64,000 nucleotides of DNA. Origin: an uncultured Clostridia bacterium. GTDB taxonomy: Bacteria; Bacillota; Clostridia; Lachnospirales; CAG-274. Below are positions 52,182-62,943 of this stretch, in pieces. Where the stretch lies: positions 62,001 through 126,000 of the forward strand of contig CANRHR010000004.1 in assembly GCA_947630475.1 (NCBI GenBank). The letters run 5' to 3'. Position 1 is the first letter of the stretch, and each line of letters opens with the position of its first letter. The position numbers were made by a program, and so were the translations under genes. The notes beneath the pieces are model-generated. The model searched no databases and had not been told where the DNA came from. It worked only from the letters and a program-made list of their open reading frames with translations.

Positions 52182-53357
52182 ATGCATCTGAGAGATTTGT
52201 TTGAATACCCTCTTCCCGTTTTAAAAACTGATGTTGATAAGCTTGCTTTTAATATAAGCGGTATAAGCGAAGGTTTTATAAACATTAAAAATACAGGCGG
52301 AGGAATCCTTAAAGGAGAAATTTTTTCAAACACGGAATGTATAACATTTTCCGAAAAAAATTTTTCCGGCAATAAAATAAAGATAAAATATGAAATAAAT
52401 ACAGCTTCATTTTTTGCCGGCGATAGGATTATATCGGAAATAGTTATTATATCCACAGGCGGAGAAAAAGTTATTCCGGTTATTTTAAATGTAATGTCAA
52501 AGCCTTTTGTTACAGAGGATAAAACGCAGTTGTTTGGCATTAACCAATTTTATGCCTATGCAAAATCAAACCCTATTGAGGCAAGAAGAATATTAGGCAG
52601 CGGCGACTTTATGCTTTGGCTTAATGTAAACGGCTTTGAGCATATGGATATACTTGAGGAAATAATAAACGACCCCAACAAAGAAAGAGCAATAGATAAT
52701 TTTTTTGTTTTATCGGGCATAAAGAAAAAATCTGATATTAAGGTTGAAAAAACAAGCTTTGAGTATAAAATAAAAAATAAGGAGCTTATAAAGGCTGTTG
52801 TTAAAATAAAAAAAATAGGAACAGGATATATAAATGCAAAAGTTTATAAAAGCTTTGATAAGCCTTGGCTTAGGCTTTTTTGCGATAAATTGACAAGCAG
52901 GGATTTTGACGGCAGCCTTAACGGAGAGCTTTATTTTGAAATTGATCCTACATTAGTTGATCGCTCTATTGATGTTGAAGAAATTGTTATAGAATCAGAA
53001 AAAAAAATAACCGTTAAAATAAGAACTGTTAAGATACCTAAAATTAAAGTCAGGCTTGATAAGCAGTTTTATAATTTTGATGACAGCGGCAGAATTTTAA
53101 TAGATAATTTCAGCGGTACAAATCTTATATTTGAGATAAGATCAAACGACAGCTTTGTAAAATTTGAGGGCGAAAAATATTTTGTAAACGAAAGAGCAGC
53201 GATTCCTTTTAAGGTTAAGCTTGCCGCTTTTACAAAAAACAGACTGGATTTTCGCCGTAAGCCGTTTATCAGCGGCGAAATAGGAATAAAAACAAATGTG
53301 GGAAAAGAAGTTTTTAGTTTTAATAAAAAGATAATTGCCGGCAGTGATTTTTTGTAA
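52182..53357 (+). CDS. Beta-rich (Ig-like) protein of the Hsp70 cluster, DUF5717-N-like
   Basis: A 391-residue protein with two or three predicted Ig-like or HYDIN-type beta-sandwich units (INIKNTGGGILKGEI … VIPVILNVM; VVKIKKIGTGYINAKVY … VKIRTVKI) around a short helical middle (YAKSNPIEARRILGSGDFMLWL … ERAIDNFFVLSG). No signal peptide or membrane helix. It recalls the N-terminal part of the DUF5717 proteins that sit beside Hsp70 genes in Lachnospiraceae; I cannot confirm this. Preceded by GAGGAG, 13 nt after the methyltransferase and 73 nt before the helical-repeat protein. Function unknown. Confidence 0.82.
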   Translation: MHLRDLFEYPLPVLKTDVDKLAFNISGISEGFINIKNTGGGILKGEIFSNTECITFSEKNFSGNKIKIKYEINTASFFAGDRIISEIVIISTGGEKVIPVILNVMSKPFVTEDKTQLFGINQFYAYAKSNPIEARRILGSGDFMLWLNVNGFEHMDILEEIINDPNKERAIDNFFVLSGIKKKSDIKVEKTSFEYKIKNKELIKAVVKIKKIGTGYINAKVYKSFDKPWLRLFCDKLTSRDFDGSLNGELYFEIDPTLVDRSIDVEEIVIESEKKITVKIRTVKIPKIKVRLDKQFYNFDDSGRILIDNFSGTNLIFEIRSNDSFVKFEGEKYFVNERAAIPFKVKLAAFTKNRLDFRRKPFISGEIGIKTNVGKEVFSFNKKIIAGSDFL

Positions 53358-53430
53358 AAGGCCTATATAATAATTATAATAATTGCGCAGGTTCTACGAA
53401 TATCATTGGCAAAATTGCAGAGGTGTTTTT

Positions 53431-56106
53431 ATGAATAAAGCTTATGCCCTTGCGGATAAAAGCGAGGAGCTTTACAACAATAAAAAAAATGTAAACAGAG
53501 GCTATAATTTTTTATTTAGATGTCTGGAGCTTTATTTTATCAATAATGATATTAAGATGCTGCAAAGAGGACTTATACGCTCAAGACAGATGCTTGATGA
53601 AAACAGACAGAGTATTTGCTTTGCCCTTTTCTGCTCGCTTTTTGAGATGGAAAGCGGATTTTATGAGCAGTCGCATAAAAGGCTTGATAAAGTAAAAAAG
53701 TATATTAAATACCTTAAAGCCAATGATACAGATAATTATTCGTTTTATTTTTATGTTAAGGTTATGACGGAGCTTTCACAAAATGGGCGCAGAAATTATT
53801 TTAAATACATTAAGTATCTTCAGGAATGTGATTGTGTATTAAGCAATATTTTTTTGGCGGATATTTATATTCGTATAAAATCTGATTACAGAAGGATAGG
53901 AGCGCTTTTAAAGTCTGTATATGAGAGCGGAAACAGAAGCAGGCTGTTTTTTATTGTTTTGTTTAAATTTTTTAGCTACAAAAATGAAAATAATCCGTTT
54001 AACGAGCTTTTAACTCCGCTTTTTAAATGGGGCTTGGCAAGAGAGCTGGATTTAAAGGAAATAGCCGAAGCCTGCGCCGATAAGATAAGTGTAGGTTTTT
54101 TCAGCCTTCAGATGTGTTTGAGGCTTTATAAAGCCTATTCGGGGCAAAAAATTTTAAGCGAAACGGTTAAGATGCTTATAAAAAATTATGATTATACAAA
54201 AAGCGCTTATCATATTTATAAAGAAGCTGTGGCAAGACAAATAGAAGCATCTCAGCTGATACCGTTTCTTGTAAAAACAAGTTTTAAGCTTGGCATAGAA
54301 GATATTGGAATTTATCCGATACAAAAATATCTTCACTCAGAGTATGCCCAAGAGGAGATAAAAGCTTTTGTTTATCATATTATTCTTAAAGACGCAAAGT
54401 ATGCGGTTCTTCTTGAAGAATATGAGAATGAAATAATAAGCTTTGGATTAAATGCATTCTCTATGGGCTACAGAGGAAGATATTATTTCAGTCTTTATAA
54501 ATTTATTACCGACAGGGCTGAAAAATATAAAATTTCAGACGGATTATGCAGTGAAATATTCAGAATACTTTACCCTTTTTCTTTTATATATGAGGTTGAA
54601 ACAGATAACAAAAAAGCGGCTTATATAAAAATAAAACATAAGGATATAAACAAAATGTCCGCTTACAGCCTTACAAACGGCAAAGCTCTTATAAGTGCGC
54701 TGAGCGATAATTTTACTTGTTATCTTTTGGATAAAGAAAATAAGGAGATTTTAACCGGAAATTTTGTATGTAAAAAACTGGTTCAAAACACAGATTTTAA
54801 TTTTTATTTTAAGCTTTATAAAAAAAATTATACAGATGAAAATATTATTCTGTTTCTTGCAAAAAATTTTCCCGCATATAATGAAAATGAGGCTGTGGAT
54901 ATTTTAAAGAGAGCTTACAAAATAAAAGGAATATCAAAAAGCCTTAAGGTAAAAACAGCGTTTAGGCTTGGCAGTATTTTTTATGCGGAAGATAAAAAAA
55001 ATGAAGCTATGGAATATTTTAAGGCGGTAGATCTTAATTATATAAGCGCATCGAACGCCGAAAGGCTTTTGTATATTTTTGCGGAAAATAATGAATTTCA
55101 GTCTGCCGTAAACGCTTTGATAAAAAAGCCCGCCCTTTTTGGAGAAAAGATATTGTTTTTTACAATTAAAAAAATTGCGCAGGATAAAAGCTTTAACGCA
55201 AGCATAAGCCCTTTTGCATATAAGCTGCTTATAAACGGAAAATATGACAAAAGCTTTGTAGAGGCTGTAAACGACGGCTACAACACTAGTATAGGCGGAT
55301 GGATGGCTTTAAGCCAAAGCCTTAATAAGCTTAAGCTCCCAAACAGAAGAATAGACGAAAGAATTTTAAAACTAAGCATTATAACAGGAGAGCTTGACGA
55401 AAAAACGGAAGATATTTTCAGAGCTTTTTATTATGCCGAGCCAAAAAGCGAAACCACTGCCGATTTTATTTATTTTTTATGCTATAAGGTTATTATAGAA
55501 AATAAGAAGCTTAGCACAGAAACGCTGAAAATTTTGGAAAGAGAATTTAAAAAAAGCAAAAATGCCGTAATTGCCGCCGCAGTTTCAAATATTTATATTA
55601 ATCAGGCGGTTACAACAGATAATTTTTATGATATAATAGAAGAAATAAAGGAAATTTTTGAGAAAAATGAAATAAGCTTTCCCAATTTTTCAAAAACTAA
55701 AGACAAAGCATTTCATAATTCGTATATAGATAAATACAAAGCCTTTTGCTACAGAGCCCCGGCCGGAAGAGAAATATATATATGCTACAAGAGAAATGAA
55801 AACGGCAGGCTTATAAAACGCAGAATGAAATATTTTAAATTTGGGCTTTATATTTTATGCCTAAGTGTTTTCAGCGGCGAAAAAATAGAATATTACTTCA
55901 GCGAGCAGCGTGAAAAAGGAAGTATTCAGACTGCGCCGGAAGTTTTTGTCAATTCCGATGAAAATTTTTATCCCGAATATGATGACGAATTTTTTAAAAT
56001 CAATTCTGCTTTTGTTAATCAGGGCATGGCAAAATATGACAGAGTAGAGGCGTTTATTTCAGAAAGAATTTTAAACGAAACGGATATAAAGGGCAGACTT
56101 TTATAA
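53431..56106 (+). CDS. Large helical-repeat (TPR-like) protein of the Hsp70 cluster, DUF5717-C-like
   Basis: An 891-residue protein, mainly alpha-helical, with pairs of short amphipathic helices like TPR/SEL1 solenoids (for example FRLGSIFYAEDKKNEAMEYFKAVD and NAERLLYIFAENNEFQSAVNAL). The C-terminal ~150 residues turn beta-rich (YKAFCYRAPAGREIYICYKR … EKIEYYFSEQ). No membrane helix. Start at 53431 (MNKAYALADKSEELY) with AGAGGTG upstream. With the preceding gene it totals about 1280 residues, the size I recall for single-gene DUF5717 homologues, so the pair may be a natural split. Likely a scaffold or substrate adaptor for the neighbouring Hsp70s; inference only. Confidence 0.85.
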   Translation: MNKAYALADKSEELYNNKKNVNRGYNFLFRCLELYFINNDIKMLQRGLIRSRQMLDENRQSICFALFCSLFEMESGFYEQSHKRLDKVKKYIKYLKANDTDNYSFYFYVKVMTELSQNGRRNYFKYIKYLQECDCVLSNIFLADIYIRIKSDYRRIGALLKSVYESGNRSRLFFIVLFKFFSYKNENNPFNELLTPLFKWGLARELDLKEIAEACADKISVGFFSLQMCLRLYKAYSGQKILSETVKMLIKNYDYTKSAYHIYKEAVARQIEASQLIPFLVKTSFKLGIEDIGIYPIQKYLHSEYAQEEIKAFVYHIILKDAKYAVLLEEYENEIISFGLNAFSMGYRGRYYFSLYKFITDRAEKYKISDGLCSEIFRILYPFSFIYEVETDNKKAAYIKIKHKDINKMSAYSLTNGKALISALSDNFTCYLLDKENKEILTGNFVCKKLVQNTDFNFYFKLYKKNYTDENIILFLAKNFPAYNENEAVDILKRAYKIKGISKSLKVKTAFRLGSIFYAEDKKNEAMEYFKAVDLNYISASNAERLLYIFAENNEFQSAVNALIKKPALFGEKILFFTIKKIAQDKSFNASISPFAYKLLINGKYDKSFVEAVNDGYNTSIGGWMALSQSLNKLKLPNRRIDERILKLSIITGELDEKTEDIFRAFYYAEPKSETTADFIYFLCYKVIIENKKLSTETLKILEREFKKSKNAVIAAAVSNIYINQAVTTDNFYDIIEEIKEIFEKNEISFPNFSKTKDKAFHNSYIDKYKAFCYRAPAGREIYICYKRNENGRLIKRRMKYFKFGLYILCLSVFSGEKIEYYFSEQREKGSIQTAPEVFVNSDENFYPEYDDEFFKINSAFVNQGMAKYDRVEAFISERILNETDIKGRLL

Positions 56107-56221: not shown

Positions 56222-57898
56222 ATGGGTACATTAGGTCTTGATTTAGAAAGAGGTTTATTTTTGGGAATAGACTTTGGCACAACAAACAGTGTTGTAAGCA
56301 TATATAATTTTAAGGATGGTCAGGCACAGACCATTCCTATTGACGGAAGCAATATATTTCCTACAGCGATACAGTTTGAAACGGACCCGGAGGACGAAAA
56401 CAAGCTTTCAAGGGTTTTTGGAATACAGGCAAAGGAGGCTGCCGTAATATATCCTCAAAGCACAATACTTTCGATAAAAAGACTGCTTGGCTCTGATGAG
56501 GATATAGTTGTCGGCGTTGATGATAAGGAATATAAATTTAAACCGCAGCAGGTAGCGGGTGAAATTCTTTCTTATTTAAAGCAAAAGGCTGATGAATATG
56601 CTCAGCAGGAGCTTAATTTAAACGGAGAATTTTCGGGCTGTGTTATAACCGTACCCGCAAACTCAACAGATAAGCAAAAAAAGATGACCAAAGAAGCGGC
56701 TGTATTTGCAGGCTTCGATGAGCAGAATGTTTATCTGCGCCTTGAGCCTGCCGCCGCAGCAATAAGCTACGCAGTAAATGAGAGAAAGGATAAAAAGGTT
56801 TTGGTTTATGACTTTGGCGGAGGAACCTTTGATGCCTGTATACTTGAGATTAAAATGGATGAAAATGAGGAGCCTAATATTTCTATTTTAAGCACTTACG
56901 GCGACAATAATTTGGGCGGAAACGATGTTGATAAGCTTGTTGCCGATATGATTTACGAAGAATTTAAAAACCTTACAGATGAAGAAATAGATCTTTTTGA
57001 TGAAGATGCCGATGACGGGGTATCAAAAAGGCAAAAAAAGGTTGCCCTTGTAAGGCTTAATCAAGTAGCAAACCAAGCTAAGGAAAGGCTTTCAGCCGCA
57101 AAGAGCACAAAGGTTGTTTTGGCGCCGTTTATTCAGGAGCCTAAAATTGTAAATCTCAATATGGAGATTACAAGAGAAGCTTTTATGAATCATAAAAGAG
57201 TAAATAAGCTTGGCGACAGCGATGAAGTATTTGAAAAATTTGAAGGCAAAACCATATCCGATATGATAGATATTACCTTAAGCTGTATAGATAAATCTCT
57301 TGAGGCGGCAGGAATAAAGGCTGAAGATATTGACGAAGTATTTTTGGTTGGCGGAAGTTCATCTATTCCTATAATAAGCGAAAAAATAAGACAAAAATTT
57401 GGAAAAGATCCCTTTAAATCAAAAATAAGCCCTGCTTTAAGCATATCTCAAGGAGCGGCTCAGTACTGCAACATGATTATGACGCCTACCGTAAAAGGAC
57501 CGTCTATTCAAGAAAAAACTATCCATCCGCTTGGGCTTGAGATTGCGGGAAGAAGATTTATGGAAATAGTTTCAAGCGGTATGGATATACCTAAAGACGG
57601 GCTTAAAATAGAAGCGCAGGAGCCTCTTATAACAAATTTTGATAATGTTACAAGCATGGCTATCGTCGTTTATGAAAATACAGCGCCTGATGGCTCAAAA
57701 GAGGTTAAATTTGTAAATGCCGAAGGTATGAAAAGGCTTGCGGGAACTTCATTAAGAGGAATACCTCAGGCTGAGAGGGGTAAGGAAAAGGTTAAGGTTA
57801 TTTTTAATGTAGGTCAGGACAATATGCTTAAGGTTACGGCGCAGAGTATGTCAACAGACGGTGTTGTAACAGAGCTTAGCGTTGATGATTTGTATTGA
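56222..57898 (+). CDS. Hsp70-family ATPase (lidless), cluster member 1
   Basis: A 558-residue Hsp70. The ATPase domain is intact: phosphate-1 LGIDFGTTNS (about 14-23), SIKRLLG carrying the catalytic Lys, phosphate-2 VYDFGGGTFDA (about 195-205) and the adenosine motif LVGGSSSIP (about 375-383). An acidic insert (LFDEDADD) follows the NDNxLGGxD-type segment. The C-terminal beta substrate-binding part keeps SLRGIPQAERG and LKVTAQSMS, but the protein ends there, so the helical lid and an EEVD-like tail are missing. Start at 56222 after AAGGAGG. Shorter than DnaK (~610-640). Cytosolic chaperone-type ATPase; substrate unknown. Confidence 0.93.
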   Translation: MGTLGLDLERGLFLGIDFGTTNSVVSIYNFKDGQAQTIPIDGSNIFPTAIQFETDPEDENKLSRVFGIQAKEAAVIYPQSTILSIKRLLGSDEDIVVGVDDKEYKFKPQQVAGEILSYLKQKADEYAQQELNLNGEFSGCVITVPANSTDKQKKMTKEAAVFAGFDEQNVYLRLEPAAAAISYAVNERKDKKVLVYDFGGGTFDACILEIKMDENEEPNISILSTYGDNNLGGNDVDKLVADMIYEEFKNLTDEEIDLFDEDADDGVSKRQKKVALVRLNQVANQAKERLSAAKSTKVVLAPFIQEPKIVNLNMEITREAFMNHKRVNKLGDSDEVFEKFEGKTISDMIDITLSCIDKSLEAAGIKAEDIDEVFLVGGSSSIPIISEKIRQKFGKDPFKSKISPALSISQGAAQYCNMIMTPTVKGPSIQEKTIHPLGLEIAGRRFMEIVSSGMDIPKDGLKIEAQEPLITNFDNVTSMAIVVYENTAPDGSKEVKFVNAEGMKRLAGTSLRGIPQAERGKEKVKVIFNVGQDNMLKVTAQSMSTDGVVTELSVDDLY

Positions 57899-57976
57899 TA
57901 CGGATATTTCAGACTGTCAAAAGACTTATTTTTTCAATTTATATTGCCGTAATTAAAAATATGCAGGGGGAATAAT

Positions 57977-59734
57977 ATGCTGAAATCACCTGTAAAAATA
58001 GACGAGGGGTTTAAATATGAATATAGCTGTATTTTTGCCGAAGCTGAAAAAATAAAAATTAATTTTTTAAATGAGCAGAAAAAATATATAATCGATTCTT
58101 TGGAACAAATAAAGCGCTCTATTTTTGTAAAGCTCATAGAATGTGTAAAAAAGGATGATAGACTTCCTTCTTTTGATGAAAAAATTTATGATTATTATTA
58201 TGAGCTTATTATGCGGTATAAAAAGGCTGTCGCCATATATGACGGCAGCAGCTTCAAGCTTGTTTCAAAAGATGTTATAAGGCTTTTGGACGGACTTAAT
58301 TCTGTTTTAAAATCCAGAATAAGCCAATTTGAAGAAATTTACAGCGTTGTTGAATACAGATATGGCAAAGACAGTTTTTCAAACCCCGTTTACACCGAAA
58401 AACAGAGCATTGTCGAAAAATTTATAGCCAATATTGGAAAAGACCTTGATAATTTTGATTTTGATGATTTTGCCAAGGTCTGTTTGTGCTGTGATGATAT
58501 AAATAAAGAATTTAACGATAGGTTTTATGATAAAATCAATCTCTGCTTTAACGATAATCTTAAGAAGTGTATCGCTTTGTTAAACGACATAGAAAAAAGA
58601 GATGTCACTGCTTTTTATTTTGAAGCAATAAAAGAAGAAAATGAAATTTTAGGCTCTGTTATAAGGATTCAGGCTGATGCTCTGGAAAAGGCGCCTCAGA
58701 GCGCCTTTGAAGAAAGTCTGATACAAAGCATACTTTTTCAGTTGAGAGATGCTTACCAGCATATAAATAAACACGTTGATTCTGTGCTGGAAAAATTTTC
58801 TCATTTCGACAAAAAACCAAAATTTGAAAAGATTAAGCTTGATAAATTTGATATTGTTGGCGACAAAATATCACAAAAAAATATTTTTGATGAAAATATT
58901 AAGCCGTTAAGGGCGCAGTTTGCCGAAACGGTTTCAAATATACTTAAAAACATAAGCTCTGGCGGAAGCGAAACTTTTGAAGAAATAAAAAGCTCTTTTG
59001 AGAGATGTTTTATGCTTTGCGAAAGAATTAAAAAAATATTTACGGAAATAAATGCTTTTTATGACGATATCAGATTTGAGCTTGAAAAAAGCGAAGAAAA
59101 GGCTATTCTTTTGGGCATTTACGATACTGTTAAAATTAAGGTGGAAAGCCTTGATGAAGGGCTTAATTTTCTTAAGCTTGATGCAGAGGAAATATTAAAC
59201 GGCGCCAAAGATGGTTTTGAGCTTAATGAAAGAGAAAAAAAGAAAATTTCCGGCGATGTGTTTGATGATTTTATTTTAAACTCAAACGCAAAAGAGCTTG
59301 ATGAACAAACGATGACAAAACTAACAGAGCTTTTTAGTTGTAAGCTTAAAAGCAATAAAGCCGGCATTCTTGAAAAAGCGGATAAAAGAATTATGCTTTT
59401 TAAAAGAGAACAGCTTTTATTTGAAATAACCACATTTGAAGAAATTATGAATTATTCGATATCAAGACTAAGACAAAGCGAAAGCTTAAGCGTTAAAGAA
59501 TATGTGGCGGCGGTTGATTTTGCCGTTAAAAGCATAGACAACTGCCTTGAAGAATTTGGCATAAGCATTATAAGACCTGCCTCGCATCAGATGTTTAACG
59601 GAAAAGAACACGAAGTTTTGATGGCTGAAAAAAGCGTTGACTTCAGCAAAGGTGAAATAATAAGAGTTATGAACAGCGGCTTTAAGGAAAAAGACCGTGT
59701 CATTATAAGAGCCAATGTTATTGCGGCTAAATAG
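57977..59734 (+). CDS. Long helical protein with C-terminal GrpE-like domain
   Basis: A 585-residue protein. Residues 1-520 are predicted mostly helical with coiled-coil stretches. Residues ~528-585 read like the GrpE beta 'wing': GISIIRPASHQMFNGKEHEVLMAE, then KGEIIRVMNSGFKEKDRVIIRANVIAAK, paralleling GrpE's FDPxxHEAV and GYxxxDRVIRPAxVxV. GrpE uses this wing to pry ADP from Hsp70. I infer a dedicated nucleotide-exchange factor for the flanking Hsp70s. No membrane helix. AGGGGG precedes the ATG. It lies between the two intact Hsp70 genes and abuts the pseudo-Hsp70 gene. Confidence 0.82.
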   Translation: MLKSPVKIDEGFKYEYSCIFAEAEKIKINFLNEQKKYIIDSLEQIKRSIFVKLIECVKKDDRLPSFDEKIYDYYYELIMRYKKAVAIYDGSSFKLVSKDVIRLLDGLNSVLKSRISQFEEIYSVVEYRYGKDSFSNPVYTEKQSIVEKFIANIGKDLDNFDFDDFAKVCLCCDDINKEFNDRFYDKINLCFNDNLKKCIALLNDIEKRDVTAFYFEAIKEENEILGSVIRIQADALEKAPQSAFEESLIQSILFQLRDAYQHINKHVDSVLEKFSHFDKKPKFEKIKLDKFDIVGDKISQKNIFDENIKPLRAQFAETVSNILKNISSGGSETFEEIKSSFERCFMLCERIKKIFTEINAFYDDIRFELEKSEEKAILLGIYDTVKIKVESLDEGLNFLKLDAEEILNGAKDGFELNEREKKKISGDVFDDFILNSNAKELDEQTMTKLTELFSCKLKSNKAGILEKADKRIMLFKREQLLFEITTFEEIMNYSISRLRQSESLSVKEYVAAVDFAVKSIDNCLEEFGISIIRPASHQMFNGKEHEVLMAEKSVDFSKGEIIRVMNSGFKEKDRVIIRANVIAAK

Positions 59735-59743
59735 GTGATGGGT

Positions 59744-61231
59744 ATGAACCGATTGGATTTTAAAGACGGAGCTTTAACAGAGGAAAAATTTATTATAGGT
59801 GTTGATTTGGGAAATTCAAGGGCAGCTGTTGCCTATTACGATATAAATACTAAAAAGCCGACTGTTTTTGATGTGAGCGGAGGATATTCCAAGGCAAGCG
59901 TTCCGGTTGCGGTTGAATATATTCCGGAAAATGACGAGTGGATATTTGGAGAATATGCAGTGTTAAATCGTCCTGTCGGCGGAGAGGTTATATTCGAAGA
60001 TATAATCGAAAATATGGGCGAGGGAAAGCTTTATCAAATCGGCAGCAAAACTGTCAGCCTTTGTTATGTTTTAAGCTTGTTTTTAAAAGAGCTTATAGGC
60101 TCTGTAAAAAACATAAATCCAAAGGCACAGATTTGCGCCGTTTATGTTTCGGCTCCGCCTTATATGACTCAGAAAGCAAAAGATGAAATAAAAAAAGCCT
60201 TTTTTATGGCAGGATATGAAAATAGCTTTATGGGCTTTGCGGACGAAAGAGAGTGCGTTATAAGCCAATATTTTGAAAGTGAACATAGGCAAAATAGACT
60301 TTTGCTTTTGGATTATGGCGAAAGAAGCATCAGAGGTAATCTTTTTTCTTTTAAAGAAGAAAATGACAAAATTATTGCCGAATGTGATTTAAGTCTTTTT
60401 GATAAAAAGGGCGGTACAAGAGAAATTTATGCAAAGCTTGCAAATCTGTTTGAAAGCTATTATATTGAAAACAATGAAAAAAGCTTTCTTACAGAATATG
60501 AAAAAAAAGAAATGTCAATATTTGCATATGAACATAACGATTTGTTTTTAAACAGATACAACAAATCCGGAATAAAATTATATTATAATTTTTGTTGTCC
60601 TCCTTTTAAAAAGGTAGTTTCAAAGGCGGAAATGGACAGCTTTGTTAAACCCTTTGAGCTTAGGCTCAAACGTTTTTTAAAAACATTCCAAAATGAAGAC
60701 TGTGATATCCTTGCCTTCGGGGGAGGATTTGAACAGCTTTGGGCAAAAAGCGCCGCCCGCGAAACCCTTGGGGATTATAATGCCGTGGGAGCAGCCGCCT
60801 GTATAATTGCCTGCGGAGCCTGCATAATTGCCTGCCGTGAGCTTGGCATTGTAAAGGGCTTAAAAATCGAAATTTACGATAAGCAGCAGATAAAAGAAGA
60901 AATAGGCATTATTGTCGGAGAAGATAAATTTATTTCTCTTTGTGAAAAAAACACATTTTGGTGGCAGGAGCAAAAAAAGAAATATTTTATTATTGATGAC
61001 TCCGGTGATGAAGATTATAGGCTTGAAATTTTTAAAAATACAAAATCAGGTCTTGTAAGAGTTTCTGTCCTCAATTTGGACGGGCTTAGAAAAAACGGCA
61101 AAAAAACCGTAAGGCTTGCCATGCAGATTATATATGAAAGCTGTGAGAAAGCTAAAATACAGATAAAGGATATCGGTTTTGGCGAAATCGAAAAAAGCAC
61201 AGGCTTTGATAAAAGCTTTGCTATACCTTGA
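59744..61231 (+). CDS. Degenerate Hsp70-like protein (predicted inactive), cluster member 2
   Basis: A 495-residue Hsp70/actin-fold relative. The phosphate-1 loop reads IGVDLGNSRAAVAYYD (TTNS lost), phosphate-2 is LLDYGERSIRGNL instead of DFGGGTFD, and the adenosine motif is AFGGGFEQL, so ATP hydrolysis is doubtful. The beta substrate-binding-like end (VSVLNLDGLRKNGKKTVRLAM … IKDIGFGEIEKSTGF) aligns with that of the next gene. A 7-residue tandem duplication (ACIIACG/ACIIACR) sits near residue 355. Start at 59744, 6 nt after AGGTG, only 9 nt from the GrpE-like gene. Probably a structural or regulatory partner of the active Hsp70s. Confidence 0.86.
   Translation: MNRLDFKDGALTEEKFIIGVDLGNSRAAVAYYDINTKKPTVFDVSGGYSKASVPVAVEYIPENDEWIFGEYAVLNRPVGGEVIFEDIIENMGEGKLYQIGSKTVSLCYVLSLFLKELIGSVKNINPKAQICAVYVSAPPYMTQKAKDEIKKAFFMAGYENSFMGFADERECVISQYFESEHRQNRLLLLDYGERSIRGNLFSFKEENDKIIAECDLSLFDKKGGTREIYAKLANLFESYYIENNEKSFLTEYEKKEMSIFAYEHNDLFLNRYNKSGIKLYYNFCCPPFKKVVSKAEMDSFVKPFELRLKRFLKTFQNEDCDILAFGGGFEQLWAKSAARETLGDYNAVGAAACIIACGACIIACRELGIVKGLKIEIYDKQQIKEEIGIIVGEDKFISLCEKNTFWWQEQKKKYFIIDDSGDEDYRLEIFKNTKSGLVRVSVLNLDGLRKNGKKTVRLAMQIIYESCEKAKIQIKDIGFGEIEKSTGFDKSFAIP
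60797..60835 (+). repeat. In-frame 21-bp tandem duplication within the pseudo-Hsp70 gene
   Basis: Nearly identical 18-mers (GCCTGYATAATTGCCTGC) at 60797-60814 and 60818-60835, spaced 21 bp, differ at one base. They duplicate seven codons encoding Ala-Cys-Ile-Ile-Ala-Cys. Confidence 0.85.
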
Positions 61232-61284: not shown

Positions 61285-62943
61285 ATGAATTGGGAAGATT
61301 ATAAAAAAGAAATAGAGCAAAGAGGAAGCTTGCCGGAAGATTGGTATATACTCGGCATAGACTTAGGCACAACGAACTCCATAATAAGCTTTTGGGATAA
61401 TAACAGCGAAAAGCCCGAGCCTATAGATATAAGCAACGGCTTTGGAAAAATACCTCTTCCGTCAGTTGTGCAATACCGAAAAGATGATGATGAGAGCGAA
61501 GGCGAATGGGTAGTGGGAGAAGAAGCATACCGATCTATGAAGATTTATCCCGAAACTACAATTCGTTCCATAAAGCGCAAGATGGGCACTGATGAAACTG
61601 TTGAGATAGACGGCAAAAGTTATCTTCCGGAGGAAATATCGGCAAAAATATTATCCGAGCTTATAGCTCATTGCCAAAGCTTAAACCCAAAGGCTGAAAT
61701 AGCCGCTGTTGTTGCGTCGGTTCCTTATGATTTTGATGACAGCGCAAAAAAAGCCACAATGAGGGCCTGTGAGCTTGCAGGCCTTTCTGATAAGCTTATA
61801 TGCCTTATAGAAGAGCCGAAAGCGGCGGCTCTTGCTTATAATTTTAGGCATCAGCTTGCCGAAAATGAAAAAATAATGGTGTTTGACTTTGGCGGCGGAA
61901 CTTTGGATATAACTTTGTTTCATGTTGTTGAAAAAAATGACAGCCATATTAAGCTTCAGGTTATAAGCGAGGGTGGTGAAGCTTATCACGGCGGTGACAA
62001 TGTAGATGAGGCTTTGGTTGAAAAATGCTATGAGTTTATAAAAAATAAGACGGGACAAAGCAAAGATGATATTGAAGTAGAAAATCAAGTTGAGCTTATA
62101 TGCAGAGCAAGAGAGGCAAAGGAAAGACTTTCGGGCGTTAAAAGCTTTAGGATTCCTTTTACTTTTTGCATACCTCCGTTTGTTGAGCAAATTTCAAGGG
62201 AAACATTTGAGGAGCTTATTGAGAATTTCAGCGAAAAAACAAGAAAGCTTGTTTTAAAAGCTCTTCGTGATGCCTATGCCGGCGCTCTTACTGCCGATGA
62301 TATAGACAGAGTGCTTTTGGAGGGAGGCTCTTCCAAAATGCCATGGGTTAAGGAGATGCTTACAGGCATATTTAATACCGATAAAATATATACCTCCGAA
62401 ACGGCGGCTCTTGATATCTCATTAGGCGCAACATATTATGCGGCGATGAAGATGGGGCTTCTTTCTCATCCCGATGTTGAGAGTGAAAAGGTAAATATAG
62501 AATTTGAGGTTACGGTTCCGCATGATATAGGCTTTGAAATAACAAGCGCAGATAAAAAATCATTTTTCACTATGATAAAAAGAGGCACTCCTTATGCTCT
62601 TGCCAAAAAAAGCCAAGTATTTACGCTTTCGGGCGATACTCCGGAGGATATGACAACTTTCGAACTTAAAATAATGGAGAGAATAGACAAAGAAGACAAA
62701 ATTGACAAATGCAAGCTTATAGGAGAGGTTGGAATAAAAGGGCTGCCGCAGCGACAAAGCGGCAAGACAAAGCTTAAAATAACGCTGCAGGTTGAAGAAG
62801 AAGGCGGAATGGTTAAGGGAAGCGTTGAGGATATGGGCTTTGGCAGCGAAATAGAGCCAAGCGGATTTAAGATGAATTTTGATCCGTCAAGGTTTGTTAA
62901 AGCTGTATGCGAAAATGCAAATGGAGCCGACGAACAGCCATGA
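61285..62943 (+). CDS. Hsp70-family ATPase (lidless), cluster member 3
   Basis: A 552-residue Hsp70. Motifs are intact: LGIDLGTTNS (about 23-32), TIRSIKRKMG with the catalytic Lys, VFDFGGGTLDITLF (about 198-211) and LLEGGSSKMP (about 344-353). The C-terminal beta domain has GIKGLPQRQSGKTKLKITLQV but diverges from DnaK, and there is no helical lid. It ends with VEDMGFGSEIEPSGF, also found at the end of the degenerate neighbour. An N-terminal extension (MNWEDYKKEIEQRGSLPEDWY) is unlike DnaK. Start at 61285 with AGGTGA upstream, 53 nt after the pseudo-Hsp70 gene. Last gene of the chaperone cluster. Confidence 0.93.
   Translation: MNWEDYKKEIEQRGSLPEDWYILGIDLGTTNSIISFWDNNSEKPEPIDISNGFGKIPLPSVVQYRKDDDESEGEWVVGEEAYRSMKIYPETTIRSIKRKMGTDETVEIDGKSYLPEEISAKILSELIAHCQSLNPKAEIAAVVASVPYDFDDSAKKATMRACELAGLSDKLICLIEEPKAAALAYNFRHQLAENEKIMVFDFGGGTLDITLFHVVEKNDSHIKLQVISEGGEAYHGGDNVDEALVEKCYEFIKNKTGQSKDDIEVENQVELICRAREAKERLSGVKSFRIPFTFCIPPFVEQISRETFEELIENFSEKTRKLVLKALRDAYAGALTADDIDRVLLEGGSSKMPWVKEMLTGIFNTDKIYTSETAALDISLGATYYAAMKMGLLSHPDVESEKVNIEFEVTVPHDIGFEITSADKKSFFTMIKRGTPYALAKKSQVFTLSGDTPEDMTTFELKIMERIDKEDKIDKCKLIGEVGIKGLPQRQSGKTKLKITLQVEEEGGMVKGSVEDMGFGSEIEPSGFKMNFDPSRFVKAVCENANGADEQP

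Follow-up and report, generated by a model that had tools for sequence, protein, structure and literature searches.

The window, a 64,000-nucleotide stretch of DNA from an uncultured Clostridia bacterium, encodes a 585-aa protein, here called GrpX (57977-59734; all window features described are on the forward strand), which is probably a dedicated, divergent nucleotide exchange factor of the GrpE type that serves HspA, an Hsp70 without a lid. We would give this reading a probability of about 0.6. GrpE resets the bacterial Hsp70 and works by wedging the nucleotide cleft of DnaK open; it is a homodimer formed via a stalk and a four-helix bundle. The C-terminal helices and β-wing of GrpX would wedge open the nucleotide cleft of HspA, as GrpE does with DnaK, and GrpX would presumably also dimerise. 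The GrpX open reading frame is preceded by a Shine-Dalgarno-like AGGGGGA (57965-57971), and its orthologues were compared in a 30-row alignment.

The C-terminus of GrpX is a GrpE-type domain in homology and fold. The Pfam search matched residues 437-584 (59285-59728) to PF01025 (GrpE) with E=8.5e-13 and 48.8 bits, over profile positions 26-164 of 165; this score exceeds the curated cut-off of 25.8 bits, and the match is not due to chance. PF01025 was also matched by 28 of the 30 GrpX orthologues at E<=0.01. The AlphaFold2 model has the GrpE fold, including a long helix, a bundle helix and a C-terminal β-wing (residues 529-585, 59561-59731; strands in 529-584), with pLDDT of 93-96 over the wing and most of the helices 470-526. 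In the Foldseek search of this model against the PDB, the top 11 matches were all GrpE or GrpEL1 (probability 0.99-1.00), and nothing besides GrpE was found at E<=0.001. The stalk and bundle helices (residues 443-498 and 504-526, 59303-59554) contain the invariant residues L481, E483, T486, E489 and S494.

Profile comparison with the PDB gave similar results. When the profile was restricted to the last 165 residues of 30 orthologues, GrpE structures were the sole significant matches (4ani, E=8.7e-5; E. coli GrpE 1dkg and human GrpEL1 had E values of 0.023 and 0.05, respectively). The full-length profile yielded nothing but a chance coiled-coil match. The GrpE-like C-terminus proposed in a preliminary description of this DNA is thus borne out by sequence family, fold and phylogeny, and the profile comparison suggested there was positive. 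The likeness, noticed at that time in the wing, is real but wider, since the stalk and bundle helices also belong to it. The long helical region had been regarded as a replacement of the GrpE coiled coil; because the GrpE profile is matched nearly end to end, the N-terminal part is instead an addition before the GrpE domain. GrpX therefore shares the stalk helices, bundle helices and β-wing with the PF01025 proteins, and differs from them by about 436 additional helical residues in front.

GrpX is located in a conserved operon, usually ordered DUF5717a-DUF5717b-HspA-GrpX-HspB-HspC-HspD-TPR, and this order recurs in most loci of sufficient length. In the window, the N-terminal part of DUF5717 (D5717a, 52182-53357; PF18984, E=2.9e-35) and its second part (D5717b, 53383-56106; PF18983, E=5.4e-26 and PF18984, E=1.4e-23; the start codon may be further in) are followed by HspA (56222-57898), GrpX, HspB (59741-61231; alternative GTG start at 59735) and HspC (61285-62943). 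The genes for HspD, an Hsp70 with a vWA domain, and the TPR protein lie 3' of HspC in most relatives; in the window's genome they are found together on contig C8 (L079:3521-6787, with HspD at L079:4709-6787) and not behind HspC. D5717a was predicted by AlphaFold2 to have three β-sandwich domains and a helical insert; its best Foldseek matches are ciliary central-pair proteins with tandem β-sandwiches, and the matches also include an SPD-2 domain.

Among the 41 relatives compared, 14 have a GrpX orthologue. The sampling of the window's clostridial order gave orthologues in 86 of 246 genomes, from more than 10 families, and public genome contigs contained 29 loci. The public contigs are titled Clostridia, Clostridiales, Eubacteriaceae, Defluviitaleaceae, Candidatus Epulonipiscium and, in one case, Turicibacter; these loci were recovered only with an alignment as the query, and single-sequence queries found no match in public genome contigs or viral contigs. 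The viral structure library also gave no match at E<=0.001. Outside the order, no GrpX was found in the class search (1 of 391 genomes matched, the window's own) or in the phylum search, where the 2 matches in 300 genomes were the own genome and a partial match to a 184-aa frame resembling ordinary GrpE. The full-length GrpX open frames are mostly about 555-680 aa.

The presence of GrpX and HspA is identical, both occurring in the same 14 of the 41 genomes; since the relatives share history, these are not 14 independent events. GrpX is immediately 3' of HspA in nearly all loci. In one genome (G028) the two genes are on separate contigs (C15 and C8), and the co-occurrence there is therefore more than simple adjacency, although this genome is a draft. 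As the conserved operon has its own unusual Hsp70s, GrpX probably serves one of them and not the ordinary DnaK. The partnership of GrpX and HspA is well supported.

Three of the four Hsp70s are intact. HspA (PF00012, E=8.2e-71), HspC (PF00012, E=6.1e-61) and HspD keep all of the catalytic and nucleotide-binding residues checked. HspB belongs to the DUF5716 family (PF18980, E=5.6e-18), and none of its 29 orthologues retains the equivalent of Lys70 or that of Thr199; arginine occupies the Gly198 position in 27 and the Asp201 position in 28 of them. On the basis of these replacements, HspB is a conserved pseudo-Hsp70 and pseudo-ATPase. Mostly 18-38 residues follow the SBD-β motif in HspA, HspB and HspC (a few of the C-termini counted are cut at contig ends), compared with 154 in DnaK. 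These three proteins end soon after this motif and are therefore without a lid. Moreover, HspA, HspC and HspD carry other residues in place of the hydrophobic LLLD that links the DnaK domains. Where DnaK has LLLDVTPLSLG, HspA has VVQEKTIHPLG or a similar sequence, HspC has IEFEVTVPHDIG and HspD has VKVGQITRQIFG. The replaced linkers, and the missing lid in HspA and HspC, suggest a cycle unlike that of DnaK.

A phylogenetic tree was reconstructed from 31 ordinary GrpE and 30 GrpX sequences, and the two split into separate groups at 100/100. L481, L524, I532, F540, H545, G568, Y/F569 and V575 (GrpX numbering) are common to both groups. At other positions that are invariant or nearly so in GrpE, GrpX has changed: T takes the place of N486, E that of R489, S that of A494, mostly bulky residues that of G512 and mostly N that of Q566, and the invariant arginine at position 577 is lost, this position being variable. 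As GrpX lacks these six conserved residues, it is no orthologue of the ordinary proteins, although both belong to one superfamily. The RANV motif had been equated with the RPAxV of GrpE in the preliminary description, but this was off by one, as the invariant R578 of GrpX aligns with Pro, Tyr or His of GrpE.

Some of these positions have been studied in GrpE. The G512 position corresponds to E. coli GrpE G122 in the C-terminal profile alignment, where the 1dkg chain is the G122D mutant; G122D was reported to abolish GrpE activity (PMC10825016). In the Mycobacterium tuberculosis GrpE, Arg169 forms a salt bridge with DnaK Glu236, and His181 was included in the interface mutant set (PMC10803776). 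These two residues align with GrpX 566 and 578, which are mostly Asn and an invariant Arg, and HspA has Gln at the position of DnaK Glu236. Such residues would fit a re-cut interface between GrpX and HspA.

The same replacements could indicate that GrpX keeps the GrpE fold merely as an Hsp70-docking module and has lost exchange catalysis, holding HspA (or HspB) in a single conformation within an assembly of several Hsp70s. The loss of the E. coli G122 equivalent and of Arg 577 would indeed speak against an exchange factor for HspA, and so might the absent lid and changed linker of HspA, whose cycle may differ from that of DnaK; the operon also has no J-domain gene. The pseudo-ATPase HspB encoded beside GrpX and the long, structured N-terminal region would likewise suit a docking module. 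However, the wing and the bundle are strongly constrained, as the C-terminal alignment has 18 invariant columns, and HspA keeps every nucleotide-binding residue checked, as expected of a cycling Hsp70. We consider a pure docking role unlikely, though it is the main alternative to exchange on HspA.

The length of a hairpin in the nucleotide-binding domain points to the partner of the proposed exchange factor. Published work associates service by GrpE with a long hairpin of the Hsp70 (276-302 in E. coli), the hairpins of Hsc70 and HscA having 4-10 residues fewer (PMC10825016). When the count starts behind the LS motif and runs to TR, the hairpin has 28 residues in the own DnaK, 27 in HspA, 28 in HspD and 22 in HspC; HspB is too degenerate to judge. 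The HspA hairpin has 27 residues in every orthologue in which the pattern was correctly located (in two rows it was misplaced). The long subdomain IIB hairpin expected of a GrpE partner is therefore found in HspA and HspD, which makes HspA the best candidate and HspD the second; HspD is possibly an additional client. That GrpX would mainly serve HspD or HspC instead of HspA seems quite improbable. The DnaK-length hairpin of HspD and its place within the same operon in most genomes are consistent with such a role; however, in the window's genome HspD is encoded on a different contig, the hairpin of HspC is short, and it is HspA that adjoins GrpX and co-occurs with it exactly.

These data also refine the view of GrpX as a purpose-built regulator between two Hsp70 genes. 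The gene does lie between Hsp70s, but its direct downstream neighbour is the degenerate HspB and not the Hsp70 at 61285 (HspC). The Hsp70s at 56222 and 61285 had both been suggested for modelling with GrpX, but the short hairpin of HspC does not support them as equally likely targets. The purpose-built role itself is supported indirectly by the conserved operon, the exact co-occurrence with HspA, the separate ordinary GrpE, and the DnaK-type hairpin that is present in HspA and not in HspC.

The whole-genome search of the window's genome found PF01025 at two places: in GrpX and, on contig C17, in an ordinary GrpE (E=6.6e-54). The latter adjoins genes for a DnaK-like protein and a J-domain protein, and this trio is away from the GrpX operon; GrpX thus differs from ordinary GrpE in being linked to HspA rather than to dnaK-dnaJ. 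It is very improbable that GrpX is a spare or stress GrpE for the ordinary DnaK: it does belong to the GrpE family and the ordinary DnaK is present, but so is an ordinary grpE linked to dnaK, and GrpX lacks residues common to all or nearly all of the 31 ordinary GrpE and is confined to HspA-bearing genomes among those compared.

The N-terminal region of GrpX (residues 1-436, 57977-59284) was predicted by AlphaFold2 to be all helical, and no Pfam family recurred in it among the orthologues. The disordered N-terminal tail of E. coli GrpE binds to the substrate site of DnaK (PMC12915176); in contrast, the GrpX region is largely structured. It contains two copies of a helical hairpin, at residues 75-116 (58199-58324) and 349-390 (59021-59146), which matched each other in hhalign profile comparison with P=1.1e-5 and a score of 28.2. 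Windows of the DUF5717b alignment served as the null, with a maximum score of 12.9 in 68 comparisons; the reversed profile scored 11.2. In the second hairpin I377, G380, I387 and K388 are invariant in 30 of 30 orthologues, and this hairpin is retained together with the GrpE part in short GrpX forms of 279-320 aa. An intramolecular pseudo-dimer, in which the N-terminal helices would repeat the GrpE bundle without its wing and form a one-chain four-helix bundle, was also considered and failed the hhalign test; the comparison of residues 195-280 with 440-530 was within the null, its score being reached in 37 of the 66 null comparisons.

The N-terminal region may be a docking scaffold. Through residues 1-436 the factor would dock to those parts of the machine that evolve fast, namely the pseudo-Hsp70 HspB and the scaffold of DUF5717 proteins, whose pace of evolution is close to that of GrpX. 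The median orthologue identity is about 76-77% for HspA, HspC and HspD, and 26-33% for GrpX, HspB, DUF5717a, DUF5717b and the TPR protein (the reference was L025 for HspD and TPR, and the window proteins for the others). The operon thus shows a two-speed evolution, in which the intact Hsp70s are slow; whereas GrpX, HspB, DUF5717 and TPR are fast.

Tentatively, the operon might encode a second self-contained bacterial Hsp70 machine apart from DnaK/DnaJ/GrpE, which would act as an ATP-driven switch or assembly device and not as a refolding chaperone. Its parts would be three active Hsp70s without the canonical lid and linker, one pseudo-Hsp70, and β-sandwich and TPR scaffolds; the giant GrpE would couple exchange on HspA to the scaffold state. 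No J domain was found in the eight window proteins scanned. The two J-domain matches in the window's genome are both away from the operon, and one of them (L080:4324-5133) is a second J-domain protein of 269 aa, unlinked to dnaJ, with an HPD motif and long predicted-helix flanks. It is a possible J partner of the extra Hsp70s.

A 2015 review described GrpE as the sole Hsp70 exchange factor encoded by eubacterial genomes (PMC4753570). Here, a genome with an ordinary grpE carries a second, lineage-specific GrpE, which has a large structured N-terminal region and is paired with its own Hsp70. In the available text of a 2025 review of GrpE-like factors, no such bacterial paralogue, fusion or N-terminal extension is mentioned (PMC12987570). 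The text search on DUF5716/DUF5717 returned one paper on an unrelated subject, and the literature search found no description of this widespread multi-Hsp70 operon of Clostridia. If the proposed role is correct, GrpX and HspA would offer a natural, testable case of specificity between an exchange factor and its Hsp70 (hairpin length, swapped interface residues), and also an entry point into this operon.

Of the published arrangements found, the nearest is theme two of the GAP1-N2 conflict systems, which comprises HSP70, GrpE, an HSP70 without the peptide-binding domain, and FNIII-DnaJ/TPR fusions (Kaur et al. 2020, PMC7159879). Both have in one neighbourhood an HSP70, a GrpE, a second reduced HSP70, and β-sandwich (FNIII) and TPR components, represented in the GrpX operon by the tandem β-sandwich protein D5717a and the terminal TPR gene. 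However, HspB keeps a β-SBD-like C-terminus and has lost the ATPase residues. The GAP1-N2 component (PF20013) was missing from all 14 GrpX genomes and was found in 1 of the 41 genomes (G012), which has no GrpX; the GrpX operon is therefore not a member of these systems, though it may work similarly. With the PADLOC anti-phage models, GrpX, D5717a/b, HspB and TPR had no match at E<=0.001, and the intact Hsp70s matched PDC-M61B only, weakly and in part, with E values from 7e-5 to 3e-11.

A related locus was observed in family f6 of the same order (L037:9153-14904; L038:8721-14344). GrpX was absent from the listed f6 genomes, and a 279-aa neighbour considered as a short GrpX was rejected, since it has no GrpE match and resembles the TPR protein of the operon. 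HspA, HspC and GrpX are absent from this locus; however, DUF5717, the HspB relative DUF5716 and the TPR-like neighbour adjoin there, and DUF5717 is one fused protein.
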